A DNA stretch of 34,873 nt from Dehalococcoidales bacterium (GTDB lineage: Bacteria > Chloroflexota > Dehalococcoidia > Dehalococcoidales > UBA5627). Shown here piece by piece: positions 5,357 to 33,824 of this stretch. Under the pieces are notes generated by a model, which was not told the DNA's origin, did not search any database, and was given only the letters and a program-made list of their open reading frames with translations. How positions within the stretch are numbered: position 1 is the stretch's first letter; every line of letters starts with the position of its first letter. A program made the translations under genes and the position numbers. Location of the stretch: NCBI GenBank assembly GCA_028707255.1, contig JAQTUQ010000014.1, positions 1 to 34,873 on the forward strand, read 5' to 3'.

Positions 5357-6429
5357 CATTCCCTCATATCGGCAATGCTTATATAGCCGTTAAAGCCATG
5401 CTCGACCCGCTGGGCGTCGATTATGTCGTACCGCCGAAATGCAATAAGCGGACTCTCTCTCTGGCGACCAAATACTCGCCCGAGGGTGTTTGCATTCCGT
5501 TCAAACTAAATCTGGGTAATATGATAGAAGCGGTGGAACTGGGAGCAGACCACATCTTGAACGTAACCGGACACGGCACCTGCCGCATGGGCTATTATTT
5601 CAAAGTGCAGGAACAAATCCTGCGCGATATGGGTTATGATGTAACGATGATGCTTACCGGCCTGTCAGAGCATAAGTTGAGAGGTTTTTTAAATCTGCTC
5701 AGAAGCGTATCCAACAACGCTCCCTGGACTAAAATCATTTCCTCCTTTGCTTTCGGTATAGCCAAGATGACGGCACTGGATGATATAGAAATCATGGCCA
5801 ATAATATGCGCGCTATCGAAAAAGTCAAGGGAACAGCCACGCCCATCTATCGTAAAGGCTTGCAGGCTATCGATGACGCCGCTGACTACCGCTCGTTAAA
5901 GGAAGTAGTAAAAGAATGCGGCGAAAAACTTTCCGAAATTGAGATAATTCCCGATTATAAACCGCTGAAAATACTGGTCGTCGGCGAAATTTACGTTGTA
6001 CTTGATCCGTTTGCCAATATGGACGTGGAACTGGAACTTGGTAAACTGGGTGTGATTACCAACCGCAGCCTCTACCTGTCAAGGTGGGTCAAGAAAGGAT
6101 TGTTCTTCAATCCGCTGGGAATCGACCAGTGGCGCGATGTCCATAAAGCCGCCATGCCCTATCTAAAACGCGATATCGGCGGCGACGGCTGGGAAACGGT
6201 CGGTGAAAAGGTTATCAGCAGCGGTCACTATGACGGAATGGTACACCTGGCTCCCTTTACCTGCATGCCGGAGGGAACAGCCCAGTGTATAATGCCTTCG
6301 ACAAGAGAGGATTTGCCGGTACTGGCGATTTACTGCGACGAACAAACCTCTAAAGCCGGAATGCTTACCAGACTGGAAGCGTTTACAGATATGATATTAA
6401 TGAAAAAAACCGGATGCTTAAGCCGTTAA
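5347..6429 (+). CDS. Acyl-CoA dehydratase activase-related protein, DUF2229-like (second of two)
   Basis: The 360-residue protein resembles another segment of the large CoA-enzyme activases. It opens with ITFPHIGNAYIAVKAMLDPL and has cysteine motifs PPKCNK, EGVCIPFKLN, GHGTCRMGYY, FTCMPEGTAQC and YCDEQTS. The FTCMPE motif parallels FACGPD in the preceding protein, and both end in a similar EQTSKAGMLTRLEAF / EEHTAEAGVVTRLEAF stretch, so the two genes are probably ancient relatives. The ATG at 5347 overlaps the upstream gene end and has AGAAGGAA just before it. A coupled operon with the ATPase gene 11 bases downstream is clear. The function is probably to bind a cluster and work with the ATPase as an electron activator. 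No direct evidence names the target enzyme. Confidence 0.8.
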   Translation: MRITFPHIGNAYIAVKAMLDPLGVDYVVPPKCNKRTLSLATKYSPEGVCIPFKLNLGNMIEAVELGADHILNVTGHGTCRMGYYFKVQEQILRDMGYDVTMMLTGLSEHKLRGFLNLLRSVSNNAPWTKIISSFAFGIAKMTALDDIEIMANNMRAIEKVKGTATPIYRKGLQAIDDAADYRSLKEVVKECGEKLSEIEIIPDYKPLKILVVGEIYVVLDPFANMDVELELGKLGVITNRSLYLSRWVKKGLFFNPLGIDQWRDVHKAAMPYLKRDIGGDGWETVGEKVISSGHYDGMVHLAPFTCMPEGTAQCIMPSTREDLPVLAIYCDEQTSKAGMLTRLEAFTDMILMKKTGCLSR

Positions 6430-6440
6430 CTGGAGGAGCA

Positions 6441-7445
6441 ATGCAAAAAAAGGTATTTCTTGGAATAGACGTCGGTTCGGTAACTACAAAGTGCGCTTTA
6501 ATGAGCGAGAATATGGAACTCATTGCTCATCGCTATATACCCACCAGCGGTAAACCCATTATTCAGATACAGAAATTAATGCGCGAAATCAGCTCCGAGA
6601 TTCCCTCGGATTGTGAAATCGGCAGTGCTGGAACCACCGGCAGCGCAAGGTATCTTGCCGGAGAAATTATCGGGGCGGATGTTATAAAAAACGAGATAAC
6701 CGCCCATGCCGTAGCCGCCACCCACTTCTATCCCGATGTCAGGACAATTTTGGAAATCGGCGGGCAGGATAGCAAGATTATCATTATACGCGATGGGATA
6801 GTGACTGACTTCGGTATGAATACGGTATGCGCCGCCGGTACCGGCAGCTTTTTAGACCATCAGGCATTGAGACTGGGTATCAGCATCAATGAATTTGCAT
6901 CCGAAGCCATGAAAAGCAAAAACCCGGTTCGCATTGCCGGACGCTGCACCGTTTTTGCCGAATCCGATATGATTCACAAGCAGCAGATGGGGCACAGCAC
7001 ACCGGATATTTTATATGGATTGTGTCAGGCGCTGGTGCGCAATTATATAAACAACGTCGGACTGGGGAAGACTATCGAGAAACCGATTATCTTCCAGGGC
7101 GGAGTCGCCTTCAACCGGGCTATCGTGCGCGCTTTCGAGGAAGAACTGGGAACTGAAATAATGGTACCCGAACACCACGAAGTAATGGGAGCTATCGGCG
7201 CTGCCATAATCGCATGGGAAAACTATAACGCTACCGGAAAAAAGACGCATTTTAAGGGCTTCGCTATCAGCGATATCAGTTATGAAACATCGACATTCAC
7301 CTGCAAAGGTTGCCCCAACCAGTGCGAGATTGCTCAACTTAAGCTTGGAGACAGGGTTTTAGCGCGCTGGGGTGGAAGATGTGAAAAATGGGAGTATATC
7401 TCCAACATTAAAGAAAGTCCGGAAGATGCGGCTGTTACAGGATAA
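6441..7445 (+). CDS. Acyl-CoA dehydratase activase, BcrAD/BadFG ATPase family
   Basis: This is an ASKHA-fold ATPase like HgdC, which uses ATP to push an electron into 2-hydroxyacyl-CoA dehydratases, or BcrA/D of benzoyl-CoA reductase. Visible motifs are the phosphate-1 loop FLGIDVGSVTTKCALM, GSAGTTGSARYLAG, ILEIGGQDSKI, and NTVCAAGTGSFLDHQALRLG with the cluster-binding cysteine. The second cluster cysteine lies in AGRCTVFAESDM, followed by FQGGVAFNRAIVRAFE. A C-terminal tail with CKGCPNQC and GGRCEKW adds four more cysteines, typical of the copies linked to DUF2229 proteins. The start at 6441 is chosen over an upstream ATG at 6414 because GGAGGA sits 3 bases before it and the family begins at KVFLGID. 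It is the last gene of the TetR-led operon. Confidence 0.88.
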   Translation: MQKKVFLGIDVGSVTTKCALMSENMELIAHRYIPTSGKPIIQIQKLMREISSEIPSDCEIGSAGTTGSARYLAGEIIGADVIKNEITAHAVAATHFYPDVRTILEIGGQDSKIIIIRDGIVTDFGMNTVCAAGTGSFLDHQALRLGISINEFASEAMKSKNPVRIAGRCTVFAESDMIHKQQMGHSTPDILYGLCQALVRNYINNVGLGKTIEKPIIFQGGVAFNRAIVRAFEEELGTEIMVPEHHEVMGAIGAAIIAWENYNATGKKTHFKGFAISDISYETSTFTCKGCPNQCEIAQLKLGDRVLARWGGRCEKWEYISNIKESPEDAAVTG

Positions 7446-18641: not shown

Positions 18642-21600
18642 ATGAATAATTATACGAGTCAATTAAACATAATAATATTGCGATTTTTTTTATTATCAAT
18701 ATTCGCCTTATTGTTATTTATTCCATCGTTTCTATTCCCCAATATTATAATACATGCGAATTCAACATCTATTTACCCAAACATAGTATTTTCTAGGTTG
18801 GATAAAAATCCGTTGTTATCAAGTAATCCTGTATATACAATTCTAAATGATAGCTACGGATACATGTGGTTTGGAGGAAGAGCAGGTTTATTTAAATACG
18901 ATGGTATAAAAGTAAATAGAATTGAAGCTATCGGCAATAGTGTCGTAAGGTCTATTTTTGAAGACAGTAAGGGGCTTTTATGGGTTGCAACTGAGAGTGG
19001 ATTATACGTTTATAATCACGGAACAAAAAGCGTTAATACATATCTTAACAATCCCAATGATTCTTTGAGTATTAGCAGTAATAATGTCTGGTCTGTTTGT
19101 GAAGATAACAGTGGAATAATATGGATAGGTACTAATAATGGGTTAAACTCATTTGACAAAGAAACAGAGATTTTTGAGGTGTATTTAAATGAACCAGATA
19201 ATATTGACAGTATTAGTGATGATACGATACGGGTTGTATATAAAGACAGCAGAGGGGCATTATGGATAGGAACAAATGAAGGAATTAATACTCTGGACGA
19301 AAAAACTGGAGTGTTTACCAATTACATTCACAATCCAATTATTACCAGTGACCATACTGTTTGGGATATATTTGAAGACAGCAAAGGGATATTATGGATA
19401 GCAACAAATGAAGGACTGAACTCCTTTGATAGAGAAACGGCGATTTTTACAAATTATGTTAATAATCCTGATAATTATACCAGTATCAGCAACAATATTA
19501 TTTGGGACATTTATGAAGATAACAATGGGATATTATGGATTGGTACAAATGAAGGACTGAACTCCTTTGATAGAGAATCAAAGACATTTACAAGATACAC
19601 TAGTAATATCAATAATTCATCCAGTATAGGTAATAATATTGTCAGAGCAATTCACATGGGACACCAAGACATATTATGGTTAGGAACAAGAGCAGGGGTT
19701 TATTATATCGACCCCACAAAACAATACTTTAATTACTACTACGATGATATGATTAAAGATAACGGTATTAGAGCTATCGATATATCAGGTGATATAAGTA
19801 TTCTAGGAACCAGCACGAGTATTATCTGGTTTAATTTTAAGAATAATCAAGTAGAACGTTATTTTCACTATTACTTAATAAGCGATATAAGAAATGCTAT
19901 TACCGATAGTGTTTACATTGATCCGTCAGGCACTTTATGGGTAGGAACCGATTATATCGGATTATTAAAAATTGATATGGGAACGGGAGACTATAAAATA
20001 TATTCTCATGACAAAGGGAATCCGAACAGTCTAATTGACGGCTGGATCTTTTCGTTATCTTACAGTATTGAACAGGAATTGTTGTGGATCGGCACTAATC
20101 AAGGCCTTTGTAGCTTCAATGTTACGGATAACAAATTTACGAGGTATAAACACGATTCTTCAAATCCTTCAAGTATTAGCAGTAATAACATTAATGTAGT
20201 TTATTGTACTGAAGACGGAAGAATATGGATAGGCACTGATCAGGGATTGGACAGATTTGATTCAGATACTGGTGAGTTCATACATTACTTAAAAGAACCT
20301 GGTAGCCAAATGGATTTTATAGAGAATCAAGTCGAGAGCATATATGAAGACAGCAATAACAACTTATGGATAGGTACTATCAACGGGCTTTTCCGATACA
20401 ATCCTCAAGCGGGTAACTTCATATTATATACTAAGGCCGACGGATTACCTGATAATCATATTTTAGGAATCATAGAAGACAATGAGGGCAATATATGGTG
20501 TACCACAAATCACTCTCTCACTAAATTGTCCCCTGAATTGAATATTATTATAAACTATAGTGATGACGATGGGCTACGCGGTCACGTTAATTATCGTAAT
20601 TCTATATCTAAAAATCATGAGGGGTATATTTTTGTTGGTAATCCCAACGGATTGTTTTCATTTAAGCCTGAGCAAATACAACATAGTTATTACTTTCCAC
20701 CGTTAGTGATAAATGATTTTTCCCTGATAAATGAAAAATCAATATATTTTGACAAACCTGTTGAAGAACTTGATGAAATTACTCTATCGTATTCGAATAA
20801 CTCTTTTGTGATAGACTTTGTTGCCTTGGACTATAGTTCCCAGCTTGATGGCAAGTATGCTTATATGCTTGCAGGGTTTGACTCTGTATGGCAATACTGT
20901 GGTCCTGATGACAGTTTTGCTAAATATACTAACATTCCTAAAGGTGAATATAATTTCATAGTGATTGCATCTAATAGCGATGGCGTTTGGAATACTGAAG
21001 GGACGGTGTTAAAAATTATCGTTACACCACCTTTTTGGCAGGAGTGGTGGTTTATATTAATATTGGTAGTATTAACATTAATTGCAGTTGCAGAACTAGT
21101 AAAAATTAGAACTCGTGTCTTAAGTATGCATGCTGTAAAACTGGAGAATCAAGTTGAGGACAGAACTTTACAATTAGCCCTGAAATCCCACCATTTGGAA
21201 GATGAATTGGAACAAAGAGCAGCTTTCTCAAGGGCATTGGTACATGAGTTGAAAACACCGTTGACGGCAGTATTGGCTGCCAGCAGTTTATTATTTTCAG
21301 AACTCAAGGATGAACCACATAGAAGCCTGGCAAAACATTTAAATGAAAGCGCTTATGATTTAGATGGTAGAATGAATGAGTTGTTCGATCTTTCAAAAGG
21401 GGAACTCGGATTACTCAGGATTGAGCGTAAACCGACAGATATAATAAAGCTTTTAACGAATGTGATCGAAATAAGTAAACATGAAGCCAACAGGAAAAAA
21501 CAAAGCATAATGCTGTTAAATGAATCATTACCATTGCCTTTAATAGATATTGATGAAAGCCGTATACGTCAAGTTGTCTTTAATCTCCTGGATAATGCCA

Positions 21601-21887
21601 TAAAGTTTACACCAGAGGGGGGTAGTATAACTGTTGACGTGGAAATAAATAGTTCTGATATAATCATTAAAATTAATGATACAGGCATTGGAATGACACA
21701 GGCAGAGTTGTCGAATATATTTAATAGCTATCGTAGTTCGGAAAAACACAAAGGAAATTTGAGCGGGCTAGGTCTAGGATTATCTCTATCGAAAATGTTT
21801 ATAGAGCTTCACGGTGGTCGCATATGGGCTGAAAGTGAAGAGGAAAAAGGAAGCACCTTCTTTTTTTCAATCCCGTTTTCTACCTAG
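18642..21887 (+). CDS. Propeller-type sensor histidine kinase (Reg_prop, Y_Y_Y, HisKA, HATPase)
   Basis: The 1081-residue protein has an N-terminal signal/membrane helix (about 10-35). About a dozen two-component propeller repeats follow, with the motif LWIGTNEGLNSFD and close variants (about 60-680), enough for two seven-bladed propellers. A Y_Y_Y domain (about 710-800, YAYMLAGFDSVWQY), a membrane helix (about 806-826) and a short coiled coil come next. The kinase core has phospho-acceptor His868 (LVHELKTPLTAV), the N box NLLDNAIKFTP, DTGIGM and GLGLGLSL. There is no receiver or HTH attached, unlike the common Bacteroidetes hybrids. The sensor part should face outside and bind a ligand. The response regulator gene follows after 31 bases. 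Base composition is clearly AT-rich compared with the genes before 18 kb. Confidence 0.92.
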   Translation: MNNYTSQLNIIILRFFLLSIFALLLFIPSFLFPNIIIHANSTSIYPNIVFSRLDKNPLLSSNPVYTILNDSYGYMWFGGRAGLFKYDGIKVNRIEAIGNSVVRSIFEDSKGLLWVATESGLYVYNHGTKSVNTYLNNPNDSLSISSNNVWSVCEDNSGIIWIGTNNGLNSFDKETEIFEVYLNEPDNIDSISDDTIRVVYKDSRGALWIGTNEGINTLDEKTGVFTNYIHNPIITSDHTVWDIFEDSKGILWIATNEGLNSFDRETAIFTNYVNNPDNYTSISNNIIWDIYEDNNGILWIGTNEGLNSFDRESKTFTRYTSNINNSSSIGNNIVRAIHMGHQDILWLGTRAGVYYIDPTKQYFNYYYDDMIKDNGIRAIDISGDISILGTSTSIIWFNFKNNQVERYFHYYLISDIRNAITDSVYIDPSGTLWVGTDYIGLLKIDMGTGDYKIYSHDKGNPNSLIDGWIFSLSYSIEQELLWIGTNQGLCSFNVTDNKFTRYKHDSSNPSSISSNNINVVYCTEDGRIWIGTDQGLDRFDSDTGEFIHYLKEPGSQMDFIENQVESIYEDSNNNLWIGTINGLFRYNPQAGNFILYTKADGLPDNHILGIIEDNEGNIWCTTNHSLTKLSPELNIIINYSDDDGLRGHVNYRNSISKNHEGYIFVGNPNGLFSFKPEQIQHSYYFPPLVINDFSLINEKSIYFDKPVEELDEITLSYSNNSFVIDFVALDYSSQLDGKYAYMLAGFDSVWQYCGPDDSFAKYTNIPKGEYNFIVIASNSDGVWNTEGTVLKIIVTPPFWQEWWFILILVVLTLIAVAELVKIRTRVLSMHAVKLENQVEDRTLQLALKSHHLEDELEQRAAFSRALVHELKTPLTAVLAASSLLFSELKDEPHRSLAKHLNESAYDLDGRMNELFDLSKGELGLLRIERKPTDIIKLLTNVIEISKHEANRKKQSIMLLNESLPLPLIDIDESRIRQVVFNLLDNAIKFTPEGGSITVDVEINSSDIIIKINDTGIGMTQAELSNIFNSYRSSEKHKGNLSGLGLGLSLSKMFIELHGGRIWAESEEEKGSTFFFSIPFST

Positions 21888-21918: not shown

Positions 21919-22608
21919 ATGAAAGTATTAATAATAGAAGACGATAAAAGGATAACCGATATTGTTTCCTTGGCTTTTCAAATACGTTGGCCTGAAGCAA
22001 AACTAATTATTGCACATGATGGAGAAACAGGAATCGGATTGGTAGAAAAGGAATCGCCAGATATAGTTATATTAGATCTGGGACTTCCCGATATAAGTGG
22101 ATTTGAAGTACTCAAAGCCATCAGGTTGTTTTCATCTATTCCGGTATTAATCCTGACTGTAATGAATGAAAGGGAAAATATTATTAAAGGATTAGAACTT
22201 GGGGCTGATGGTTATATGGTAAAACCATTTGATCAACTAGAAATGCTTGCCAGAGTACAGGCTATATTAAGAAGAACAAATCTTATAATTGATGAAGTCC
22301 CGATAAAAATTGGTTCCCTGAGTTTCGGGCCCTCTTTAAGTAAATTAACGTATAAAGATAAATATATTGATATCACACGCGTTGAAGGAATCATTCTTTA
22401 TAATTTAATGAAAAATGCCGGTAATGTTCTAACGTATTCAAAATTATGTAAATGCATTTGGGGTGACGAATACTCAGGTTGTATTGAAAGTATCAGAGTA
22501 CATATAACGCGTTTACGTACAAAGATTGAAGAAGAGCCGAATAAACCTAGAATTATATGTACCAAAGTTGGTATTGGGTACTATATAGACGAAAAATCGA
22601 TTGAATAA
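21919..22608 (+). CDS. OmpR/PhoB family response regulator
   Basis: The 229-residue protein has a receiver domain with E7-D8, phospho-acceptor Asp53 (IVILDLGLPDISG), the switch Thr in LILTVMNE and Lys in MVKPFD. A winged-helix DNA-binding domain follows (about 130-225, SIRVHITRLRTKIEEEPNKP and GIGYYIDE). GGGGGAG lies about 7 bases before the ATG. It is the partner of the upstream kinase and is followed by a terminator, so the two form a complete operon. OmpR-type regulators bind tandem direct repeats with 10-11-base spacing. Such an array begins about 110 bases downstream of this gene, ahead of the receiver-like gene and the molybdoenzyme operon, which makes those the likely targets (inference). 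Confidence 0.93.
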   Translation: MKVLIIEDDKRITDIVSLAFQIRWPEAKLIIAHDGETGIGLVEKESPDIVILDLGLPDISGFEVLKAIRLFSSIPVLILTVMNERENIIKGLELGADGYMVKPFDQLEMLARVQAILRRTNLIIDEVPIKIGSLSFGPSLSKLTYKDKYIDITRVEGIILYNLMKNAGNVLTYSKLCKCIWGDEYSGCIESIRVHITRLRTKIEEEPNKPRIICTKVGIGYYIDEKSIE

Positions 22609-22844: not shown

Positions 22845-22911
22845 AGCATAACTAATGTCTTAAAAAACTACTTGGCTTAGATCATTATCGCTTGATAAGG
22901 AAGATTTGCAT

Positions 22912-23367
22912 ATGGAAATCCTTATAGCAAATAAAGACTCTGACTTAACAATGGATTTAAGCCTGACTTTTAATCGATTGACGCCGGATTGGAAGGTAAC
23001 CATCGTCGATTCCGGTATAGAATGCATGGAAAAATTAAAACAAGGCAACTGCCGTGATGCCATTATTTTAGGAATGCAATTATCTGATACGTCCGGTTTA
23101 GATTTGCTTGCGCAAATCCGTGACGACTCTGATATTCCTGTAATATTTATATCCAATGATAAAAACACCGACCTTCTAGTACAGGTTTTTGATGCCGGCG
23201 CAAATGATTTTATTGTAAAACCGTTCAATGATGAATTATTTATTGCCAGCTTAAAAGCAGTTATCAGAAGAAGAATATGGGATATTCCGATAAAAGGATT
23301 TAATTTAATGCATAAGTATAAACAAGGAATTGGTTGCCAGTCTTCATTAGGGAAATCTGATAATTGA
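22912..23367 (+). CDS. Degenerate stand-alone receiver-domain protein (pseudo-receiver)
   Basis: The 151-residue protein has the receiver fold through its length: EILIANKDSDL, DAIILGMQLSDTSGLDLLAQ, IPVIFISNDKN, GANDFIVKPFNDE. The position of the phospho-acceptor Asp is Gly54 (IILGMQ), and the acidic pair that binds magnesium is replaced by Asn7-Lys8. The Lys of VKPF is kept. It therefore cannot be phosphorylated in the usual way. There is no DNA-binding domain, only about 30 extra residues after the receiver. The ATG at 22912 has AAGGAAG 8 bases upstream and is preferred to a TTG 6 bases earlier. It lies between the sensor operon and the molybdoenzyme genes, so it may be a constitutive or protein-binding regulator of them. 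Confidence 0.82.
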   Translation: MEILIANKDSDLTMDLSLTFNRLTPDWKVTIVDSGIECMEKLKQGNCRDAIILGMQLSDTSGLDLLAQIRDDSDIPVIFISNDKNTDLLVQVFDAGANDFIVKPFNDELFIASLKAVIRRRIWDIPIKGFNLMHKYKQGIGCQSSLGKSDN

Positions 23368-23430: not shown

Positions 23431-23487
23431 ATGCCTATTAAACATTTATCATTGTTTAAACAAATCTATGAAAGGAGAAAAAATTGA
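23431..23487 (+). CDS. Possible 18-residue leader peptide
   Basis: A short frame (MPIKHLSLFKQIYERRKN) begins right after a near-perfect ribosome site GGAGGTGAT (23424-23432) and ends with a TGA that overlaps the TTG start of the molybdoenzyme gene. The spacing from the site to this ATG is only 2 bases, which is short, so translation is uncertain. If real, it would couple translation into the large subunit. Confidence 0.25.
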   Translation: MPIKHLSLFKQIYERRKN

Positions 23488-26477
23488 AAGAAGAAAAAGA
23501 AAAATTAATTTCAAATGAAGAAGGGAAACAAGCCGGAGAAGTTTCCAGGCGTGATTTTCTTGTCGGTGCCGGTACGGTAGTTGTCGGTACTGCCGTGGGT
23601 GCCGGCATGCTTTCCGGTTGTAGCGGAGGCGAAACCACCAAGACTGTTGAGACGACCAAAACAGTTGAAAAGACTGTTACAACCACTGTCGGCGGTGCGG
23701 GAGCTACGGTAACCGAAACCAAAACAGTTGGTGCGGGTGAGACAGTTACTGCAACTGCAACCAAGACCGTAACTCAGCCGGGTGGCGGGGGTTTGGAGCC
23801 GTGGCAGGAACCGGAGACACCATTCCCAGGAGCTTATGGCACCGATTCTAATCAGGCATGCATAGCCGATGTTAAAAACGGGAAAATAGTCAGAATCAGG
23901 CCATTTAACTGGGATTATGACGTTTCTGAAGAGGATTTGAAAGCTGCTGAGTGGGAATTTACCGCTCATGGAAAAACCTATAAGTCATTTAGAAGATCGC
24001 ATTCCAGTTGGTTTTCTATGGCATATAAGAAACGCATTTACTCACCGGCCAGGATTCTATTCCCCGTACAGCGAGTTGACTGGGAACCGGGTGGTGACCC
24101 GGATAAAATTAATGCCCAGAATCGTGGTATCAGTAAATACAAGAGAATCTCCTGGGATACTGCTGCAACTTTAATAGCCAGTGAAATAAAAAGGGTACAG
24201 GATAAATACGGAGTATTTTCCTGTTTGTTCGCTGAAACCCCGGCACACAGGGAAACCAAGGTTGTTCACTGGCCCGGAAATATTCAGGGTCGTATGTTAG
24301 GTGGAGCAGTACCCGGAGAGGCCATGTTCAGTGAACAGGTAAGAAATGCTGATAGCTGGGAGGGTTATTTCTGGGGTTTGAAATGGTTAGCCGGAGAAGG
24401 AAATGTAGGTGCGGTAACACCTTCCACTAACAACATACTTGATGTAGCCGAAAATTGCGAAATGGTTGTAATTCAGGGTTGCGACAGGATAGTTACCGGT
24501 AAAGCAGCCTCATGTGGAACACTCAATTTCCTGCATAAGCTTGGAACCATAAAACATGTTTATCTGGCGCCTGATTGCAACTATCAAAATGCGGCTTATC
24601 CCGGTAAATGGATACCGATTCTTCCAAATACAGATATAGCATTATCGTATGCTATTGTTTATACCTGGTTGGTAGAAGATACATGGGATAAGGAATATGT
24701 GGATACTCATGTTGTCGGTATGGAATATATACGGGATTATGCCATGGGTGATGTTGATGGTGTGGCAAAAACACCGGAATGGGCATCTAAAAGAACCGGC
24801 ATCCCTGAATGGACAATTAAAGCGCTCGCCAGAGCATGGGCAAAATACAGAACAACAGCCGGACATGGTACAGGAGGTCATGTAAGAGGCCCTTACTCTC
24901 ATGAAGAAGGCAGGATGACCGGCGTGCTTATGGGTATGCAGGGGCTTGGGAAACCGGGTCAGCAATGGTGGGGCGGATTTGGTGGCGCCAGTCCCAGTCG
25001 CAGCGCAGATACAAGTGTCGGTTCTGCCCGAACCCCCGGCAGAGCGTGCAGACAGGTACGCAATGTCAGGTCGAAGCAGTTTATTCCCAAGACGCTGGTA
25101 AGCCCGGCTATACTTGACCATGGTTTTGATAAGCCGATGAGTTGGTATGGGCATACGGCAAATGCGGAAATGAGGCCGGACCAGTTGATTAAATTCACCT
25201 ATCCGATACCGCAGGCAGATGGTGGCGCTGAAATACATCTTTTCTGGAATGATAAACCCTGCAACATCGGCTGCTGGAATGCCGGACATAAATTGATTGA
25301 GGCATTTAGAAGCCCCAAACTGGAGGCTTTCTTCACTCAGCATCAATGGATGTCTGGAGATTGTGTATTTGCTGACATCATCCTTCCGATCAATACCGCA
25401 GCAGAGGAAGATGACCTGTGTAATGCTACGGGCGACCAGAGCGCGGTATTTTACAAACCGAGAGCCATTGAACCGTTAGGAGAATCAAAGAGCGATTATG
25501 AAGCAACCCTTGAAGTAGCTTATAAGCTACAGGAATTCGGCGGCAGATACGCGAAGGCCGTTGAAAACCTCACTGAAGGCATGGATTTCGACGCTCTTAT
25601 CAGATACGGGTATGAAGGCACTCAAATGGCTAAAACAATACCGTGGGAAGAATTCCAGAAAAAATCCTATCTGTTGGCGCCGGTTAATCCAAAATGGCAG
25701 GAATCTGCTCCAGGTTTACGCAGATTCTACGAAGACCCGGTTAAATACCCAAGAGACTTACCTTCCGGTAAGCTGGAGTTTTATTCCCAAGTGTTAGCTG
25801 ATAACTTCCCCGATGATAAAGAAAGGCCTCCTTATCCCCAGTATGTAATCGGTGGTCCCAATCCGAATTGGGAAGTTAATGATACAGGTTGGATGCATGA
25901 TGAAAGTCTCGATGTTGAAAACGGAGCCGAAAGATGCAAGCAATATCCGTTCCTTTTACAAACCAACCACCCGCGTTGGCGTGTACATGTCCAGTGCGAC
26001 GATATCCCCTGGTTCAGGGAAGTTGATACATGTAAGATGAAAGGGCCTGATGGATATATGTATGAACCCCTGTGGATTAATCCGATTGATGCTGAAAAAT
26101 TGGGGATAAGACACGGTGACATTGTAAAAATCTTCAATGAGAGGGGTATTGACCTCGGAGCGGCATATGTTAGCCAGAGAATTATACCCGGAGCAGTTTA
26201 CCAGGACCATGGAGCCAGGGAAGACTTCGTTTCCAGTTGGCCTCATGAATGCATCAACAGAGGCGGAACAAACCAGCAAATATCACCTCTACCGGGTGTC
26301 TCCAGAAATTGCTGGGGCATGGCTTCACAGGCGTTCCTGGTAGGTGTGGAAAAGCTTGATCCGGCTGAGATGGAGCAGTGGAGGACTCAACATCCCCATG
26401 CATTCGAATGGTCTAAAAATTGGGACCCATATGTGGGTTATACTTTCCAAGACTGGTTAGAACAGGGAGGTGCCTAA
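23484..26477 (+). CDS. Tat-exported molybdopterin enzyme, large subunit, pyrogallol-phloroglucinol transhydroxylase (AthL)-like
   Basis: The 997-residue protein starts with a Tat motif, SRRDFLVGAG, and a lipobox-like LSGC, then a Thr/Val-rich stalk (TTKTVETTKTVEKTVTTT and more, to about residue 100). The catalytic part is a DMSO-reductase-family molybdopterin fold: RISWDTAATLIASEIKRVQD, RNADSWEGYFWG, YLAPDCNYQNAAYPGKWIPI, LPNTDIALSYAIVYTW, TPEWASKRTGIPEWTIKALA and RGPYSHEEGRMTGV. These segments closely resemble AthL. As in AthL there is no N-terminal four-cysteine iron-sulfur motif, and Asp290-Ser291 (ADSWEG) aligns with the Asp-Ser that supplies the molybdenum ligand. The start is TTG with GAAAGGAG upstream. 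The reaction is unknown: it may be a hydroxyl transfer or a reduction of an aromatic compound. Export and lipid anchoring are not part of the known cytosolic transhydroxylase. Confidence 0.85.
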   Translation: MKEEKEKLISNEEGKQAGEVSRRDFLVGAGTVVVGTAVGAGMLSGCSGGETTKTVETTKTVEKTVTTTVGGAGATVTETKTVGAGETVTATATKTVTQPGGGGLEPWQEPETPFPGAYGTDSNQACIADVKNGKIVRIRPFNWDYDVSEEDLKAAEWEFTAHGKTYKSFRRSHSSWFSMAYKKRIYSPARILFPVQRVDWEPGGDPDKINAQNRGISKYKRISWDTAATLIASEIKRVQDKYGVFSCLFAETPAHRETKVVHWPGNIQGRMLGGAVPGEAMFSEQVRNADSWEGYFWGLKWLAGEGNVGAVTPSTNNILDVAENCEMVVIQGCDRIVTGKAASCGTLNFLHKLGTIKHVYLAPDCNYQNAAYPGKWIPILPNTDIALSYAIVYTWLVEDTWDKEYVDTHVVGMEYIRDYAMGDVDGVAKTPEWASKRTGIPEWTIKALARAWAKYRTTAGHGTGGHVRGPYSHEEGRMTGVLMGMQGLGKPGQQWWGGFGGASPSRSADTSVGSARTPGRACRQVRNVRSKQFIPKTLVSPAILDHGFDKPMSWYGHTANAEMRPDQLIKFTYPIPQADGGAEIHLFWNDKPCNIGCWNAGHKLIEAFRSPKLEAFFTQHQWMSGDCVFADIILPINTAAEEDDLCNATGDQSAVFYKPRAIEPLGESKSDYEATLEVAYKLQEFGGRYAKAVENLTEGMDFDALIRYGYEGTQMAKTIPWEEFQKKSYLLAPVNPKWQESAPGLRRFYEDPVKYPRDLPSGKLEFYSQVLADNFPDDKERPPYPQYVIGGPNPNWEVNDTGWMHDESLDVENGAERCKQYPFLLQTNHPRWRVHVQCDDIPWFREVDTCKMKGPDGYMYEPLWINPIDAEKLGIRHGDIVKIFNERGIDLGAAYVSQRIIPGAVYQDHGAREDFVSSWPHECINRGGTNQQISPLPGVSRNCWGMASQAFLVGVEKLDPAEMEQWRTQHPHAFEWSKNWDPYVGYTFQDWLEQGGA

Positions 26478-27293
26478 ATGAAAGCTATTGTTTTTAATGT
26501 TTTACAATGCGTCGGTTGTTATTCCTGTCAGATTGGCTGCAAGGACGAACACTGCGGAAATGACTGGATGCCCTATGCCAGACCCCAACCTGAAACAGGG
26601 CAATTCTGGATGAAGTTAAGAGAATTCGAACGAGGGGCAACTCCACAGGTTAAAGTATCCTATACACCAGTTCCCTGTATGCACTGTGACGATGCGCCAT
26701 GCATGGAAGCCTGCTTGACAGAGGGCGCAATAATCAAGAGGGCTGATGGTCTGGTTATCATTGACCCAATAAAATGCAGTGGTTGCCAACTTTGTATAAC
26801 CGCTTGTCCCTATGGAGCTATATTTTACAATTCCGGGCTTCAAATCGCCCAGAAATGTACGGGTTGCGCACATCTTATAGACAGAGGTTGGCCTATCAAG
26901 GAACCCAGATGTATCAATAACTGCCCCGGTGATGTAGGCGCCTTTGGTGAAGAATCCGAACTAGCCAGTGAGATCGCACAGGCTGAGAAACTTGAGCCTA
27001 ACTTCGGCGAAACTCCAAAAGTAAGAGTATACTATAAAGGCTTACCCAAGAGGTTCATCGCAGGTTGCGTATATAATCCGGCTACAAAAGATGTGGTTAT
27101 CGGAGCCACATGCACTGTCAGTGGCGCTGCAGGAAATACAAGTGCTGCGACAGATGATTTCGGGGACTTTTGGTTTGAAGGCTTGTCGAAAGGTACTTTT
27201 ACTCTAACGATAAGCGGGGATGGTAAAACCAAAACGATAACTGGCGATACTACAGAAAAAGATGTCGCCTTAGGTGACATCGCACTCACCTAA
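26478..27293 (+). CDS. Four-cluster-type ferredoxin subunit with C-terminal beta domain (AthS-like)
   Basis: The 271-residue protein starts immediately after the large subunit stop with GGGAGGTGCC before its ATG. Cysteine motifs in order are CVGCYSCQIGCKDEHC, CMHCDDAPCMEAC, CSGCQLCITACPYGA and CTGCAH...CINNCPGDV, the pattern of DmsB/NrfC-type electron-transfer subunits. The last 75 residues (YNPATKDVVIGATCTVSGAA, then FWFEGLSKGTFTLTISGD) form a carboxypeptidase-regulatory or transthyretin-like beta domain. The same build, ferredoxin part plus C-terminal beta barrel, is known for the small subunit of pyrogallol transhydroxylase, which supports the assignment of the pair. It has no signal peptide and would leave the cell with the Tat-carrying partner. 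It passes electrons between the large subunit and the membrane. Confidence 0.88.
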   Translation: MKAIVFNVLQCVGCYSCQIGCKDEHCGNDWMPYARPQPETGQFWMKLREFERGATPQVKVSYTPVPCMHCDDAPCMEACLTEGAIIKRADGLVIIDPIKCSGCQLCITACPYGAIFYNSGLQIAQKCTGCAHLIDRGWPIKEPRCINNCPGDVGAFGEESELASEIAQAEKLEPNFGETPKVRVYYKGLPKRFIAGCVYNPATKDVVIGATCTVSGAAGNTSAATDDFGDFWFEGLSKGTFTLTISGDGKTKTITGDTTEKDVALGDIALT

Positions 27294-27315
27294 AAAAGTA
27301 ATTTAATAGTGCGAA

Positions 27316-27362
27316 AATATAGGGGTGAGTATTAACTGATGCAAGCAACTCACCCCTATATT
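27316..27362 (+). other. Long intra-operon hairpin
   Basis: AATATAGGGGTGAGT (27316-27330) and ACTCACCCCTATATT (27348-27362) form a perfect 15-base-pair stem with a 17-base loop between the ferredoxin and membrane subunit genes. No T run follows, so it is more likely a processing or stability element, or a leaky terminator that lowers expression of the membrane gene. Confidence 0.6.
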
Positions 27363-27387
27363 ACAAAAAAGAAAGGATAAAAATACA

Positions 27388-27960
27388 ATGGGAAATGCTA
27401 GAGTCTGGATATTCCGTTTTTTGATTTTAGCTGTCAGCGCTTTTTTGGTTTGGACATGGTTACAGCCCTGGTGGGAGTTATACATCCGCGAAGCATCTTT
27501 CTACATGCAAATCCGCCCTTGGGGACTTTCACACAATCTGGGAAACTATATTGTCTATTTACCTGGTGCTGAAATGCCTGCTTTTTTTGCTCCAATAATG
27601 TGGACATATCTGGGATTAGCTGTCGCAGCCTTATTTTATAGTATGTTTGTAAAAGACAAGAAGTTTAATATCTGGAAATTACGTTTTAACCTGCCAACCT
27701 TTATAATCGGACTTGTCGGAATATCTTATATTGTAGTCGTTATTACCGCTGTCATAGTTGCCTATATAAGGACCGCTGATTTTGGTGTATTGTTGATAGG
27801 ACACACTTATATTGAATTAGGTGAATTTCCTGTCGGAGCCAACGGCATAGCAGACCTTCAACAAGGCTACTGGATGGCATGTGCAGCTGGTCCTTTGTTA
27901 CTAATACTGGCAATATTGCGAAATATAATTATAGGTAGAAAAAAAGGCCAAATAGAGTAA
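27388..27960 (+). CDS. Four-helix membrane protein, probable membrane partner of the molybdoenzyme
   Basis: The 190-residue protein has about four membrane segments (8-28, 67-88, 108-135, 163-183). The first loop carries WTWLQPWWELYIRE and IRPWGLSHNLGNYI. I do not recognise it as NrfD, DmsC or a cytochrome b; only one histidine in the first loop and one in the third look suited to binding a cofactor. GAAAGGAT lies about 9 bases before the ATG, and the gene follows the ferredoxin gene after 94 bases containing a hairpin. By position it should tie the exported enzyme to the membrane quinone pool or act as its anchor. That role is inferred from context only. Confidence 0.7.
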   Translation: MGNARVWIFRFLILAVSAFLVWTWLQPWWELYIREASFYMQIRPWGLSHNLGNYIVYLPGAEMPAFFAPIMWTYLGLAVAALFYSMFVKDKKFNIWKLRFNLPTFIIGLVGISYIVVVITAVIVAYIRTADFGVLLIGHTYIELGEFPVGANGIADLQQGYWMACAAGPLLLILAILRNIIIGRKKGQIE

Positions 27961-29825: not shown

Positions 29826-30443
29826 ACGAAAATCAAAGTAAACAAATTTGTTAATTATGCTATGGCTCTATTTCTGGTTTATTTATTAATAGGAGTATCT
29901 ATCTCCAGTTACATCCTATGGTTTGTATTACCCAGAGGGATAGGCTTACATGGTTATTCGTATTGTCACCTATACGGAACGGGTCTAATGGGCAATTATT
30001 ATTCAGCTTTTGGACTAACCAGATATATTTGGGTAGAAGTTCATTCTTGGTTATCGATTGCATTAGCAATTTTAATTTTTATACACATAATTCTTCATAT
30101 TAACTGGATATATGAGACAGTAAAAAGAATAAAAAGTTACATTCTTAAAAAACAAGGTCTTATCATAGAGCGATATCTTGCTTCTATCATATTGTTTATT
30201 CTGTTTAGTTTTGAAATAGTTTCCGGCTTTATTATATGGCTGATTATGCCAAGGGGGGTTGAGGATTATTATGCAATGACCAGCGGTATCGGAAGAACCT
30301 TCTGGGGATTACAAAGAAATATCTGGGTGGATATTCACGCATGGATTGCTGTAATAATAGTTTCGTTTGTCATTATACATTTAATAATGCACTGGAGATG
30401 GATAGTAGGTGTAATAAAAGGAAATAACAAAGTTACAGTATGA
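29826..30443 (+). CDS. Histidine-rich four-helix membrane protein, DUF4405/cytochrome b-like (first copy)
   Basis: The protein is about 205 residues with four membrane helices and an internal repeat. Each half has a W-x-x-P-R-G turn (LWFVLPRG; IWLIMPRG), then IWV-E/D-x-H (IWVEVHSWL; IWVDIHAWI), then IH-x-I-x-H (FIHIILH; VIHLIMHW). These paired histidines are like those that hold b-type haem in DUF4405 and related proteins. The first canonical start is ATG 29862. The relative at 33825-34436 begins earlier, and a frame-matched ACG at 29826, 6 bases after GGGGAG, would give MKIKVNKFVNYAM; I therefore place the start there with caution. It lies between the YkgJ gene and the radical SAM gene. A quinone- or electron-transfer role is inferred. 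Confidence 0.78.
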   Translation, partial: TKIKVNKFVNYAMALFLVYLLIGVSISSYILWFVLPRGIGLHGYSYCHLYGTGLMGNYYSAFGLTRYIWVEVHSWLSIALAILIFIHIILHINWIYETVKRIKSYILKKQGLIIERYLASIILFILFSFEIVSGFIIWLIMPRGVEDYYAMTSGIGRTFWGLQRNIWVDIHAWIAVIIVSFVIIHLIMHWRWIVGVIKGNNKVTV

Positions 30444-30492: not shown

Positions 30493-32142
30493 ATGGATTA
30501 CGATGTTATATTAATACATCCACCGGCTATTTACGATTTCAGGAGAAAATCTATTTTCCCTGGAGCTCTTGGCTCCACTGTTGAGCGCATACAATACACA
30601 AAAGTACCAATAGGTATGCTTAGCATCGCCGATTATATAGATAGGCACGGCTACAAGGTTATTGTAGACAATCTGGCCGATCGTATGGTTAGTAATAAGT
30701 CTTTTAATGCTGAGGAGCATATAAAGAATGCCTCGGCAAAAATATTTGCCATAGGTTTACACTGGCAACATCACTCTCAAGGTGCGATAGCAGTGGCCAA
30801 ATTATGTAAACAATTTCATCCTGATTCGCTTGTTATCCTTGGTGGTCTTACATCCACTTACTTTCACGAGGAAATTATAAATAAATACCATTTTATTGAT
30901 GCAGTAATTCGCGGTGAAGCTGAAAAACCATTATTAGAATTTATCAAAGCTTATCAAAAGACGGGTCAACTTACGGCAACACCCAATTTAACCTACAGGG
31001 ATAATTCTGGTGAAATACTGATAACCCCTCTTATGGAAACATGTGACAAACTAGATGAGTATGAGTTTACACGATTCGACTTATTAGAGCCCAAAACATC
31101 TATTTTTTCTACCGGCCCCAGATGGGGGCTAACCATTTGTAGGGGTTGTATTTATAACTGCACCATTTGCGGAGGCTCAGCTTATACCTATAAGAAATAT
31201 CTCGGAAGAAAGAAACCGGCCTTTAGAAGCCCACAAAAGATTGTAGATGATATAAGAAAACTCAGCAAACAAGGTATAAGGTTCGTAGGTCTTTATCAGG
31301 ACCCTCGGATGGGCGGAGAAACTTATTGGAGAGGACTCATATCATCAATTAAAAACAGTAAACTTGATATAGATGGACTTACAATGGATATTTTTGCTCC
31401 GGTTAGTGAAGAATTCGCAAAAGAGGTTGCAAGTATTGGAAAACCTGTAAAGTTTTTTATTTGTCCAGACTCCGGATCCTGTGATGTGCGAAAATTACAG
31501 GGGAGAGGTTATTCAAACGAAGATTTACTCAATACAGCAAAACTTTGTTATCAAAATGATATTATGATAACGTTTTTTTTCTCAGATGGACTGTCAGGCG
31601 AAACCCCAGAAACAATTATTGAAACCAGAAATATCATCGACCAGCTATGCTTGTTACAACAGGAGGCCATGGAAAAAGGAATCATCCATAGTAAATATGC
31701 TGATTTAGTAGAAGTACCTATAATAGGGCCGATAATGCTGGATCCCGGCTCCCTGGCATTTGATTTCCCCCAAGATTACGGATATAAGTTATCTTTTAAT
31801 ACACTTGAAGAGTACGTAAAAACTCTATCATTGCCTTCCTGGCATCAGTGGTTAAATCATGAAACGAATACAACTGATAGAAATGAGTTGGTAGAACGTA
31901 TTCTCGAATCAGCAGAGTACTCCATTGCTCAAAAAAAGAAATTTGGCATGTACAGTGAGCTTAAGGCTTATTTAGATATGATGTTAACTAAGGCTGATAG
32001 GGATATGGTTAAAGAGATAAACCGTATAATGAAATTCCCAGATGATGAACGAATAGCCATGCTCAAATCACTAAGAGAACAACTTACTTTGTTTGATTCA
32101 TACCTGGGGTCTTTACTTTGCGCTGAGCAATCAAGCAAATAA
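30493..32142 (+). CDS. Radical SAM protein with N-terminal B12-binding-type domain
   Basis: The 549-residue protein opens with YDVILIHPPAIYDFRRKSIF, the usual start of B12-binding radical SAM enzymes (BchE/PhpK/HpnJ type). The B12-like Rossmann part reaches about residue 155 (LVILGGLTSTYFHEE, AVIRGEAEKPLLEF). The radical SAM core has the cluster motif C219-x3-C223-x2-C226 (CIYNCTICGG), and RFVGLYQDPRMGG and FFICPDSGSCD are later strands. The C-terminal 180 residues include helical parts without a familiar domain. FGGGAGGTC-like sequence is before the ATG. It belongs to the operon after the histidine-rich membrane gene. The reaction is unknown. It could modify a lipid, quinone or cofactor used by the neighbouring membrane proteins, which is inference only. 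Confidence 0.85.
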   Translation: MDYDVILIHPPAIYDFRRKSIFPGALGSTVERIQYTKVPIGMLSIADYIDRHGYKVIVDNLADRMVSNKSFNAEEHIKNASAKIFAIGLHWQHHSQGAIAVAKLCKQFHPDSLVILGGLTSTYFHEEIINKYHFIDAVIRGEAEKPLLEFIKAYQKTGQLTATPNLTYRDNSGEILITPLMETCDKLDEYEFTRFDLLEPKTSIFSTGPRWGLTICRGCIYNCTICGGSAYTYKKYLGRKKPAFRSPQKIVDDIRKLSKQGIRFVGLYQDPRMGGETYWRGLISSIKNSKLDIDGLTMDIFAPVSEEFAKEVASIGKPVKFFICPDSGSCDVRKLQGRGYSNEDLLNTAKLCYQNDIMITFFFSDGLSGETPETIIETRNIIDQLCLLQQEAMEKGIIHSKYADLVEVPIIGPIMLDPGSLAFDFPQDYGYKLSFNTLEEYVKTLSLPSWHQWLNHETNTTDRNELVERILESAEYSIAQKKKFGMYSELKAYLDMMLTKADRDMVKEINRIMKFPDDERIAMLKSLREQLTLFDSYLGSLLCAEQSSK

Positions 32143-32489: not shown

Positions 32490-33044
32490 ATGGTAAGAGC
32501 TGGTATGTTTCTGGGGCTTTTGGGGTCGTTATCTTTCATAGTTTTCCTATTAGTTTTAACATTAGATAGTAGAAATAGTTATAACCTGCTATTGATTACT
32601 GCCGTGTTACCGTTCCTATTTCTACTATATTCACAAAAAAACCCTTTTATTGGGGGTATACTGTTAATTACTATTGGCATAGCCGCTGTCATTATTGATT
32701 GTAATGTTACAATTGGAGTAATTGGATGGGTAATTGGCCAGGGTTTAGGTTATACGATATTTTTTGTTACCATGCCATTGACAATATCGGGTATTCTTTT
32801 TATTCTATCTGTAATATCAAAGGTATATGTCTTAACTTTTTCCCCTTCTGGTGTATTAAAAATAAACTGGAATTTTCTAGTTGTGTTCGGTTCAACATTT
32901 CTAATACGGATAACTTGCGTTCCGATTTTTTCTTTATTAAGATTTTTGAAAGTGGCTATTAATACGGCATCTGTCTTAATATCACTAATATTTTTAATGA
33001 TACCTTCAATTTCTTCGGAGCCTGATTTATTTGTTTTTGCCTGA
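32490..33044 (+). CDS. Small membrane protein with an unusual antisense-overlapping tail
   Basis: The reading frame gives 184 residues. The first about 110 residues look real: four membrane helices (6-26, 32-45, 51-75, 80-110) with GYTIFFVTMPLTISGILFIL at the end, like small uncharacterised membrane proteins that usually stop just after ISGILF. The remaining about 70 residues run antisense to the end of the convergent beta-domain gene (overlap 32750-33044) and have no recognisable feature. I suspect the natural stop has been lost by a deletion that joined the tails of two convergent genes. An ATG at 32490 is chosen (TTG at 32481 is the alternative). A strong promoter lies upstream. Function unknown. 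Confidence 0.55.
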   Translation: MVRAGMFLGLLGSLSFIVFLLVLTLDSRNSYNLLLITAVLPFLFLLYSQKNPFIGGILLITIGIAAVIIDCNVTIGVIGWVIGQGLGYTIFFVTMPLTISGILFILSVISKVYVLTFSPSGVLKINWNFLVVFGSTFLIRITCVPIFSLLRFLKVAINTASVLISLIFLMIPSISSEPDLFVFA

Positions 33045-33766
33045 TGTCTAACAAGCTGTATTTTCTCGATATCGGTAGTTATAGTTTTAAGTAGTTTAAC
33101 GTTATAACTCTTAGCTTCAATATCTTTAAAATTATTCGAATATATTAAAACGGAGCGGCTTTTTCCCGCCTTTAAGTCTGTTTCAATATGCTCAAATACA
33201 TCTAAAATTTCACCTTCAGCATCATAGAAAGTAACTTCAAATAAAGCTGTTGCAATTGTTACATTCGAGATATTGCGTACGGCAATTTCAAGCACACTCT
33301 TCTGACCAATTCTTTCAAAATAGCTATCAGAAGCTATTGGTAGAAAAGAATGGTTCAATATTTGAATGTATTCATTATCCGTAACTAAAGGCGATGGTGG
33401 AGCGCATATTTCTACTATATTAACAGAATAATTCTTAATAGCAATCCCGCCTTTTTTCGATCCTATAATTAGCGGGTATTCTTTGTTTTTTACCAGGTTT
33501 TTTATTACATGCTCAATTGTTTCTATGACATCTCCATTCGTGTCATAGAAAACAATATTAAATGTGACCTTGCCAATATCTGACTCGGAGACATTTTTCA
33601 AATACAAACTTACCCCGTTAATACTTAAATTATCTCCAGATTCTTTCAAGAAAACTGGTTTGCTAATAATCTCTATTTGATTATTGATATTGGAATTATT
33701 TAAATTAATGACTTTTTCAATTCCATAGATGTTTACTTCCCCGGATGACTCTTTTCCCTGACTCAA
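32750..33766 (-). CDS. Cytosolic protein with three tandem FxLYD-like beta domains
   Basis: The 338-residue relative of the protein at 28282-28980 has three repeat units: about 30-115 (ISKPVFLKESGDNLSINGVS, VTFNIVFYDTNGDVI), 135-225 (LEIAVRNISNVTIATALFEV, TFYDAEGEILDVFEHIE) and 230-318 (IEGIIKNISDIKTDAVLIAT, FKNLNKEKIG). No signal sequence is seen. The TTG start at 33766 has AGGAGGAGAGG 3-12 bases upstream. Relative to the two-domain copy, the C-terminus is about 15 residues longer, running into the convergent membrane gene. It follows the second histidine-rich membrane gene after 58 bases. The role is unknown. Keeping the same partner gene in both places suggests the two products work together. 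Confidence 0.75.
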   Translation of the reverse strand: MSQGKESSGEVNIYGIEKVINLNNSNINNQIEIISKPVFLKESGDNLSINGVSLYLKNVSESDIGKVTFNIVFYDTNGDVIETIEHVIKNLVKNKEYPLIIGSKKGGIAIKNYSVNIVEICAPPSPLVTDNEYIQILNHSFLPIASDSYFERIGQKSVLEIAVRNISNVTIATALFEVTFYDAEGEILDVFEHIETDLKAGKSRSVLIYSNNFKDIEAKSYNVKLLKTITTDIEKIQLVRHQAKTNKSGSEEIEGIIKNISDIKTDAVLIATFKNLNKEKIGTQVIRIRNVEPNTTRKFQFIFNTPEGEKVKTYTFDITDRIKRIPDIVNGMVTKNIV

Positions 33767-33824
33767 TGTCCTCTCCTCCTGAAATTTAATTTTAATAGTA
33801 CCAAATGAGGTTTTATTATTTCTT

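Follow-up and report, generated by a model that had tools for sequence, protein, structure and literature searches.

A stretch of Dehalococcoidales DNA 34,873 nucleotides long (hereafter the window) encodes a large catalytic subunit (L), a small iron-sulfur subunit (S) and a membrane protein (M). We interpret them, with about an even chance of being right, as a surface respiratory oxidoreductase of the kin of AthL, the large subunit of pyrogallol-phloroglucinol transhydroxylase, and of RhL of resorcinol hydroxylase, the reaction of which, we infer, is probably the reduction of a hydroxylated substrate.

Organization of the locus and its copies

Intact open reading frames on one strand encode L, S and M. 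The features of the window are as follows.

18642..21887, + strand: sensor histidine kinase with an extracytoplasmic Reg_prop/Y_Y_Y sensor (Pfam Reg_prop, Y_Y_Y, HisKA, HATPase_c)
21919..22608, + strand: OmpR-type response regulator (Response_reg and Trans_reg_C)
22906..23367, + strand: stand-alone receiver protein, encoded immediately before L (Response_reg only)
23484..26477, + strand: L, large catalytic subunit of the AthL sister clade, putative Tat lipoprotein (motifs, Pfam, phmmer, tree, fold)
23547..23621, + strand: Tat RRDFL motif to lipobox Cys, L residues 22-46
23622..23786, + strand: Thr/Val-rich stalk, L residues 47-101 (T or V in 28 of 55 residues)
24246..24248, + strand: His255, equivalent to AthL His144, invariant in the sequence alignment
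24351..24356, + strand: Asp290-Ser291, aligned with AthL Asp174-Ser175 (Ser is the Mo ligand)
26478..27293, + strand: S, small subunit with 16 Cys for four [4Fe-4S] clusters and a C-terminal beta domain, without signal peptide
27388..27960, + strand: M, membrane subunit with four transmembrane helices and a predicted claudin-like fold
29862..30443, + strand: DUF4405/cytochrome b561-like membrane protein, downstream (PF14358 1.5e-18, PF01292 1e-5)
30493..32142, + strand: B12-binding radical SAM protein, a conserved neighbour (TIGR04190, 363 bits, below the cut-off of 500)

The start codon of L is TTG, with AAAGGAG 5' of it. The leader, with RRDFL at residues 22-26 and the lipobox LSGC ending in Cys46, is kept in five other exported copies (six with the window copy). 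Threonine and valine make up 51% of the 55-residue stalk versus 10.6% (about 11%) of L elsewhere. The Tat motif, the lipobox and the stalk described in the first-pass annotation were thus all located. From these signals, L is apparently exported and lipid-anchored, and TatC is present in the genome; a transhydroxylase proper, in contrast, would be expected in the cytoplasm. TatC was not found in another genome, G017 (88% complete), although G017 carries exported copies.

Four full exported copies are encoded in the genome of the window, and two-component genes adjoin every one of them. A histidine kinase lies upstream of exported L also at C33, C66 and C19 of this genome and at C98 of G017, the other five exported copies all have a receiver-like gene ahead of L, and the order histidine kinase, response regulator, receiver was found ahead of five of the six. 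A survey of Tat-type AthL relatives and their neighbours, as proposed in the first-pass annotation, found exported copies with two-component genes and M: in the search of the order, leader-bearing matches beyond the window were confined to its own genome and G017, and many other close relatives of L begin at about residue 117-130, without a leader. The features of L, S and M do not stem from chance. L-S paralogues or orthologues keep this gene order at other sites of the genome and in a second Dehalococcoidales family. Genes similar to the radical SAM gene lie downstream of M at C33 and at C98 of G017. A further DUF4405 match was found at 33825-34436 of the window, and a similar-looking open reading frame in C33.

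Relationship and active site of the large subunit

Among PDB sequences, AthL (4v4c_A) was the best phmmer match of L (1e-79) and TorA the second (3.7e-42); the Pfam family AhtL-like_1st scored narrowly above its cut-off (27.4 vs 27.0). The model of L matched AthL in Foldseek (5.7e-56) and with a VIA Z of 32.8 over 779 residues, to which the structural Z of TorA/DorA (30-32) is close. In trees built without RhL and without any catechol dehydroxylase sequence, L grouped with AthL against TorA, BisC and DmsA (support 99/97; 98/93 for L and AthL in the second tree). Sequence, tree and fold therefore agree on the kinship with AthL noted at first reading. L, however, lies in a sister clade of the true AthL clade (both clades 100/100), which excludes its membership of the latter. 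Support for a single origin of the exported copies was low (80/46 in the first tree, 68/35 in the second). Thiosulfate, polysulfide, arsenate and formate enzymes were rejected as identities of L, their sequence matches being weaker and their structural Z 22-23.

The Asp-Ser pair already recognized at first reading aligns with that of AthL, and His144 and Asp174-Ser175-Trp176 of AthL are all kept in L. The WEG motif is also kept, whereas TorA and DmsA have neither this motif nor the histidine. Agreement with the AthL active site is nevertheless partial, as Tyr152, Arg153 and Tyr404, which we take to be substrate-pocket residues of AthL, are replaced by W, P and S (the alignment being uncertain near Tyr404). 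Since these residues are not kept, pyrogallol is not likely to be the substrate of L. The column of AthL Asp174 reads D, D, Y, T, V and C in the six exported copies; the C19 copy has no DSWE motif, and its Mo ligand may have changed. Of the earlier proposal that the transhydroxylase scaffold had been recruited, the kinship with AthL stands, while the position in the sister clade and the loss of most of the substrate pocket speak against a closer identity.

The small subunit

S matches AthS (3e-53) over residues 4-269, including the C-terminal CarboxypepD_reg-type domain, so that the AthS-like build assigned earlier extends along the whole length. All 16 cluster Cys are present in the six exported S copies and in DmsB. 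In contrast, the Cys at positions 79, 100, 103 and 106 are missing from AthS and from all five small subunits of the AthL clade (clade A) tested, which come from bacteria with an Fe-S-type S. The loss of these four Cys would leave one [4Fe-4S] cluster fewer, and the retention of all 16 in exported S argues for a redox enzyme. Most cytosolic sister-clade small subunits tested also have four intact clusters, which are thus not specific to export.

S therefore corresponds to the four-cluster electron-transfer subunit, as in DmsB, that is expected of a respiratory complex iron-sulfur molybdoenzyme. The grouping with AthL, the Asp-Ser pair with His144, the lack of an N-terminal cluster and the two-domain small subunit place the enzyme among the AthL/RhL kin; the marks of a transhydroxylase proper, namely a position in the AthL clade, the pocket residues and the reduced Cys set of the small subunit, are absent.

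The membrane protein

The AF2 model of M (pLDDT 77.7) has four helices, in keeping with the four-helix membrane gene annotated after S, and M lies downstream of S in all five AthL-type L-S loci with enough sequence. The model matches the claudin fold over its whole length (Z 10.8 over 155 residues; Foldseek 2.6e-3), although a Z of this size can arise by chance between helical bundles. M would share four transmembrane helices and outer-face beta strands with claudins, TARPs, GARLH and DUOXA1; it is, however, bacterial and has no detectable sequence relation to them. Claudins have a conserved pair of Cys in their first outer loop, whereas the M alignment contains no conserved Cys column.

No Pfam or NCBIfam family scored above threshold for M, with scattered weak matches (PRA1, DUF4064 and DoxD, for example), and its assignment to a known family, RdhB included, was rejected. 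M did not match the known quinol-linked membrane subunits of the DmsC, NarI or NrfD type. As no conserved His for heme was found in the alignment, M was also rejected as a heme b subunit. M occurs in 8 of the 156 genomes of the order and in 2 of the 393 genomes of the class sample, both of them Dehalococcoidales; none was found on plasmids. In other families of the order, M follows exported xanthine-oxidase-type enzymes unrelated to L, an association missed by the first-pass annotation. M therefore looks like a shared membrane module of exported molybdoenzymes.

Whether M carries electrons is evenly balanced against its being a mere anchor or assembly factor, with electrons delivered by another carrier. 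The lack of conserved His or Cys, the pairing with enzymes of two unrelated types, of which one brings a FAD subunit of its own, and the structural resemblance to TARPs and DUOXA1, which are accessory subunits, all agree with an anchor; the lipid-anchor signal of L, on the other hand, would make a second plain anchor partly redundant. This question concerns M only and is compatible with a respiratory role of the complex.

Proposed function and alternative interpretations

We propose that L pairs with S in a molybdo-bis-MGD/iron-sulfur heterodimer, which would fold in the cytoplasm and be exported as a unit via Tat, guided by the L signal. The lipidated Cys and the stalk would then tether L to the membrane on its outer side, where L would dock on M, presumably a four-helix protein that has a beta sheet outside the cytoplasm and lacks a conserved heme His. 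The genome encodes an exported Ni-Fe hydrogenase (Tat small subunit, large subunit and cytochrome b) and menA-like and ubiE-like genes. Electrons from outside-facing H2 oxidation could thus pass through hydrogenase, cytochrome b and probably menaquinone, and then through the four clusters of S to Mo, where a hydroxylated, perhaps aromatic, extracellular substrate would be reduced by dehydroxylation or deoxygenation. Hydroxylation, feeding electrons in, would be the second choice of direction. A dedicated two-component system may activate each copy. The electron path has a gap between quinone and S, as M lacks heme ligands and is no known quinol-oxidising subunit; the DUF4405 protein could fill it. 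An aromatic substrate is plausible, since catabolic clusters of aromatic type contain cytosolic members of the sister clade. The respiratory or surface role suggested at first reading gains support from the 16-Cys S, the hydrogenase and the menA/ubiE-like genes. Redox use of the scaffold, however, has a precedent in the broader family, resorcinol hydroxylase (PMC10100899).

The same precedent bears on a reaction in the opposite direction, in which an exported resorcinol-hydroxylase-like enzyme would oxidise an extracellular phenolic compound and pass electrons via S to the membrane as a donor module. Resorcinol hydroxylase belongs to the same Ser-ligated family (PMC10100899), the 16-Cys S fits either direction, and hydroxylation from water requires an electron sink. 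Its product, however, would form outside the cell, no genes for product use were seen near the four exported copies, no BKACE gene was found in the genome, and the exported hydrogenase is already a dedicated donor module; we regard this direction as rather unlikely. An oxo-transfer reductase for S-oxides, N-oxides or other small oxidised compounds, AthL-like in looks only and with a merely historical aromatic link, would account for the loss of most phenol-pocket residues and for the closeness of TorA/DorA, which rank next in relationship, share the Ser ligand and have a Z only slightly below that of AthL. It is nonetheless unlikely, given the histidine and WEG motif that TorA and DmsA lack, and the closest cytosolic relatives of L, among which is a cluster that holds BKACE, CoA-transferase-like and thiolase-like genes. 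Very improbable is an exported true transhydroxylase that converts pyrogallol-like compounds before uptake without a net redox change. In its favour are AthL as the closest enzyme of solved structure, and His144 and Asp-Ser-Trp in the window copy; against it stand the sister-clade position, the three lost pocket residues, the variable Asp174 column, the Cys still present in S and the lack of BKACE.

Comparison with known systems

The preferred reading, a surface reductase, can be compared with known enzymes. L/S resemble AthL/AthS of Pelobacter acidigallici (4v4c) in fold, in both subunits end to end, in the Ser ligand, His144 and Trp176, and in lacking an N-terminal cluster motif. They differ in clade, Tat lipoprotein signals, membrane partner, the four-cluster rather than reduced Cys set, the missing Tyr152, Arg153 and Tyr404, and a genome without BKACE. 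According to PMC10100899, RhL/RhS of Azoarcus anaerobius belong to the same Ser-ligated kin group but are cytoplasmic; they catalyse a net redox reaction, as is proposed for L/S. The catechol dehydroxylases Dadh, Cadh and Hcdh of Eggerthella lenta follow a similar plan, with a Tat-exported Mo subunit, a 4Fe-4S subunit and a putative membrane anchor, and are nearest to acetylene hydratase, away from AthL (PMC7028382). L, in contrast, groups with AthL. Its identity as a catechol dehydroxylase of the acetylene hydratase branch was rejected, since residues 110-185 contain one Cys only, and hence no N-terminal [4Fe-4S] Cys motif, and acetylene hydratase gave phmmer 1.3e-4 vs 1e-79 for AthL and Z 22.7 vs 32.8.

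RdhA/RdhB of Dehalococcoidales are also alike in having a Tat-exported terminal enzyme, a small membrane partner, an expansion of paralogues and adjacent two-component systems (PMC13390414); Dehalogenimonas rdhA loci of validated function adjoin such a system (PMC13390414). The catalytic proteins are, however, unrelated (corrinoid vs Mo), M has no RdhB match, and no reductive dehalogenase (RdhA) gene was found in the genome of the window.

Significance

Exported AthL relatives and M appear to be undescribed so far; a literature search gave no publication on the former or on bacterial claudin folds. Pyrogallol hydroxytransferase genes in sediment Chloroflexi have been interpreted as a sign that aromatic compounds are degraded (PMC3971608, PMC4959651). 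If our proposal is true, a branch that is exported, has four clusters and comes with regulators and a membrane partner of its own would instead be a respiratory system, which would change the reading of such genomes. It could be the second case after the catechol dehydroxylases, and from another branch, of a Mo enzyme of the superfamily turned into an exported enzyme for hydroxylated compounds. M would provide a test of how exported molybdoenzymes that have neither a heme subunit nor one of NrfD type join the membrane. More tentatively, M may be the founder of a claudin-fold family in bacteria, used as a common dock or electron gate by exported molybdoenzymes from two unrelated superfamilies, the DMSO reductase and xanthine oxidase types. 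With it, a small Dehalococcoidales-like group might respire hydroxylated compounds at the cell surface, not organohalides, expanding the AthL scaffold as its relatives expanded RdhA.

Gene organization and export signals

The three genes are arranged as follows.
23484-26477, forward strand: large subunit (L), 997 aa
26478-27293, forward strand: small subunit (S), 271 aa
27388-27960, forward strand: membrane protein (M), 190 aa

L starts at a TTG codon with a good ribosome site upstream and has no N-terminal cluster motif. The Tat motif, lipobox and Thr/Val stalk ascribed to L in the first-pass annotation were confirmed: RRDFL occupies residues 22-26, Cys46 closes the lipobox, and Thr and Val together make up 51% of the 55-residue stalk but 11% of the remainder of L. 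The first base of S directly follows the L stop codon, and a gap of about 95 bases separates S from M. S has no signal peptide, which fits passage through Tat as the cargo of L; TatC is present in the host genome (a 1.64 Mb draft, 98% complete).

Six exported copies were compared: that in the window, three on other contigs of the same genome (C33, C66, C19) and two in genome G017 (C98, C153). In the window and on C33, C66, C19 and C98, L is preceded by genes for a histidine kinase, an OmpR regulator and a free-standing receiver; on C153 the receiver lies 5' of L, and the kinase is farther upstream on the opposite strand. Since Dehalogenimonas rdhAB loci of validated function adjoin two-component systems (PMC13390414), this is the layout that regulated terminal enzymes have in this order.

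B12-binding radical SAM genes (TIGR04190-like) recur 3' of L-S-M (window 30493-32142; loci L035:6473-9832 and L039:10086-10326). A second set on the reverse strand (window 32750-34729), with a DUF4405 cytochrome b561-like protein, is like neighbours of other exported copies. Contig C35 of the host genome encodes a UGSC-family selenoprotein with a Tat-lipobox leader resembling that of L (L095:2681-4663; in-frame TGA giving the motif UGSC; PF24696, 3e-29; two-component regulator upstream). At the end of this contig, a Tat-lipobox-stalk protein interrupted by the contig end (L095:4754-5038) is possibly a fifth exported copy in this genome.

Relationship to the transhydroxylase

The closest solved proteins to L and S are the large and small subunits of pyrogallol-phloroglucinol transhydroxylase, AthL (1e-79) and AthS (3e-53). 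When modelled with AF2 (mean pLDDT 69), L again matched AthL best (Foldseek 5.7e-56; VIA Z 32.8, 2.6 Å, 779 residues), with DMSO reductase nearly equal (VIA Z 32.1), rows differing by 1 Z or less being tied. In a 47-row tree that included TorA, BisC and DmsA, AthL fell inside clade A and L inside clade B (support 100/100 each), the latter with cytosolic proteins from Dehalococcoidales-like genomes, Actinomycetota and Sporomusa. The two clades were united against TorA, BisC and DmsA (99/97), and again in a second tree with leaders removed (98/93). The proposed kinship with AthL thus held at this level, but L lies outside the clade of AthL itself. The six exported L proteins form long branches; their leaders are nearly identical, despite weak support for a single origin (80/46; 68/35 in the second tree).

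Clade A and clade B genes are adjacent and divergent on three Actinomycetota contigs (L007, L010, L011), with a thiolase-like gene near. Clade A relatives also occur in aerobic Proteobacteria (L068:4545-8359, a Salipiger abyssi plasmid; L066; L067).

Active site and iron-sulfur ligands

Residues were numbered by alignment with AthL. His144 is conserved in all clade A and B rows and is lacking in TorA and DmsA. Of the six exported copies, all but C19 conserve Ser175 and Trp176; in C19, TTSAG replaces the DSWEG stretch. Position 174 is Asp in the window and C33, whereas the remaining four carry Tyr, Thr, Val and Cys there. No clade B protein has the AthL substrate-pocket residues (2004 crystal structure) Tyr152, Arg153 and Tyr404. 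The suggested active-site match therefore extends to His144, Asp174, Ser175 and Trp176 of L and fails at these three residues. Judged from the alignments, the core of the chemistry appears common with AthL, and the pocket of L does not appear to be that for pyrogallol.

All six exported S proteins retain 16 cluster Cys, the same as DmsB. Four of these (window S positions 79, 100, 103 and 106) are missing in AthS and in all five clade A small subunits tested from Actinomycetota and Dehalococcoidales-like genomes, so that ligands for three clusters remain. The clade A small subunit of Salipiger lacks the same four and others, and so has lost many cluster Cys in all. Most cytosolic clade B small subunits tested have 16 Cys, Sporomusa lacking the full set. 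In the branch that apparently works outside the cell the electron wire is thus kept intact, which speaks against an electron-neutral reaction.

The membrane protein M

M lies 3' of S at all five loci with enough sequence, the C66 contig being too short to judge, and its model (pLDDT 77.7) shows four TM helices, as first described, with outer beta strands. A survey of 156 genomes from the order turned up M in 8. In G051, G412 and G413 it lies 3' of another exported enzyme, of xanthine-oxidase type (families checked for G051), comprising a [2Fe-2S] subunit, a xanthine-oxidase-type Mo subunit and an FAD subunit; the [2Fe-2S] subunit carries Tat motif, lipobox and Thr/Val stalk (seen in three of four loci).
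L049:5362-10185 (G051): xanthine-oxidase-type set with M
L054:107-1745 (G366): FAD-type subunit alone left between the contig end and M
L059:7036-11697 (G412): xanthine-oxidase-type set with M
L060:3206-7867 (G413): xanthine-oxidase-type set with M

From this gene order, the partners of M are predicted to be exported Mo enzymes from two unrelated superfamilies. In G381 (L058) the contig ends ahead of any M partner; a Tat reductive dehalogenase lies near the M gene (L058:6412-7866; PF13486, 6e-26). ThiF-, acyl-carrier-, FabF- and FabG-like genes, possibly a biosynthetic cluster, occur near the xanthine-oxidase-type loci and beside M in L058.

The 50 best VIA matches of the M model are all claudin/TARP/GARLH/GSG1L/CaV-gamma/DUOXA1-type structures. 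The top match reaches Z 10.8 over 155 of 190 residues, a value that helical bundles can reach by chance, and neither a sequence relation to claudins nor a Cys pair in support of homology was found. We therefore describe M as probably claudin-like in fold, not as a claudin. Several of these matches belong to larger membrane complexes as accessory subunits; this would fit the role proposed below but proves nothing.

Proposed function

Gene content suggests a catabolic role for the cytosolic relatives but not for the exported proteins. BKACE is presumably the family of the triacetate acetoacetate-lyase of phloroglucinol breakdown. Two BKACE genes occur in genome G009, which encodes cytosolic enzymes of both clades; one of the two lies in the cluster of the clade B enzyme, beside CoA-transferase-like and thiolase-like genes. 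No BKACE gene was found in the window's genome. The breakdown pathway with this lyase is described in PMC10470551. Three window genes (4352-7445) resemble, by eye, 2-hydroxyacyl-CoA dehydratase/activase-type proteins. Pyrogallol hydroxytransferase genes of sediment Chloroflexi (PMC3971608) and of a marine Dehalococcoidia cell (PMC4959651) were reported as catabolic, and the portions of these papers covered say nothing of their being exported or having a partner in the membrane. The Tat/Fe-S/anchor plan of L-S-M recurs in catechol dehydroxylases, which, unlike L, group apart from AthL (PMC7028382). In the literature searched, which included a minority of subscription papers, neither AthL relatives with export signals nor M were found described.

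The host genome encodes a Tat-exported Ni-Fe hydrogenase (small subunit, large subunit, cytochrome b) adjoining Rnf-like genes, so assigned from reading of the sequences, and adjacent menA-like and ubiE-like genes; no match to a reductive dehalogenase was found in it. Of the main rivals, a true transhydroxylase is very improbable and the least likely. We consider an exported hydroxylase unlikely, and an oxo-transfer reductase distinctly unlikely. The best reading, to which we give about an even chance, is a surface-displayed respiratory oxidoreductase. L and S would form a complex docked on M at the cell surface and would receive electrons from H2 oxidation outside the cell and from quinol, directly or via another carrier, in the direction of reduction of a hydroxylated compound. 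The pocket varies from one exported copy to another, which fits diverging substrates.
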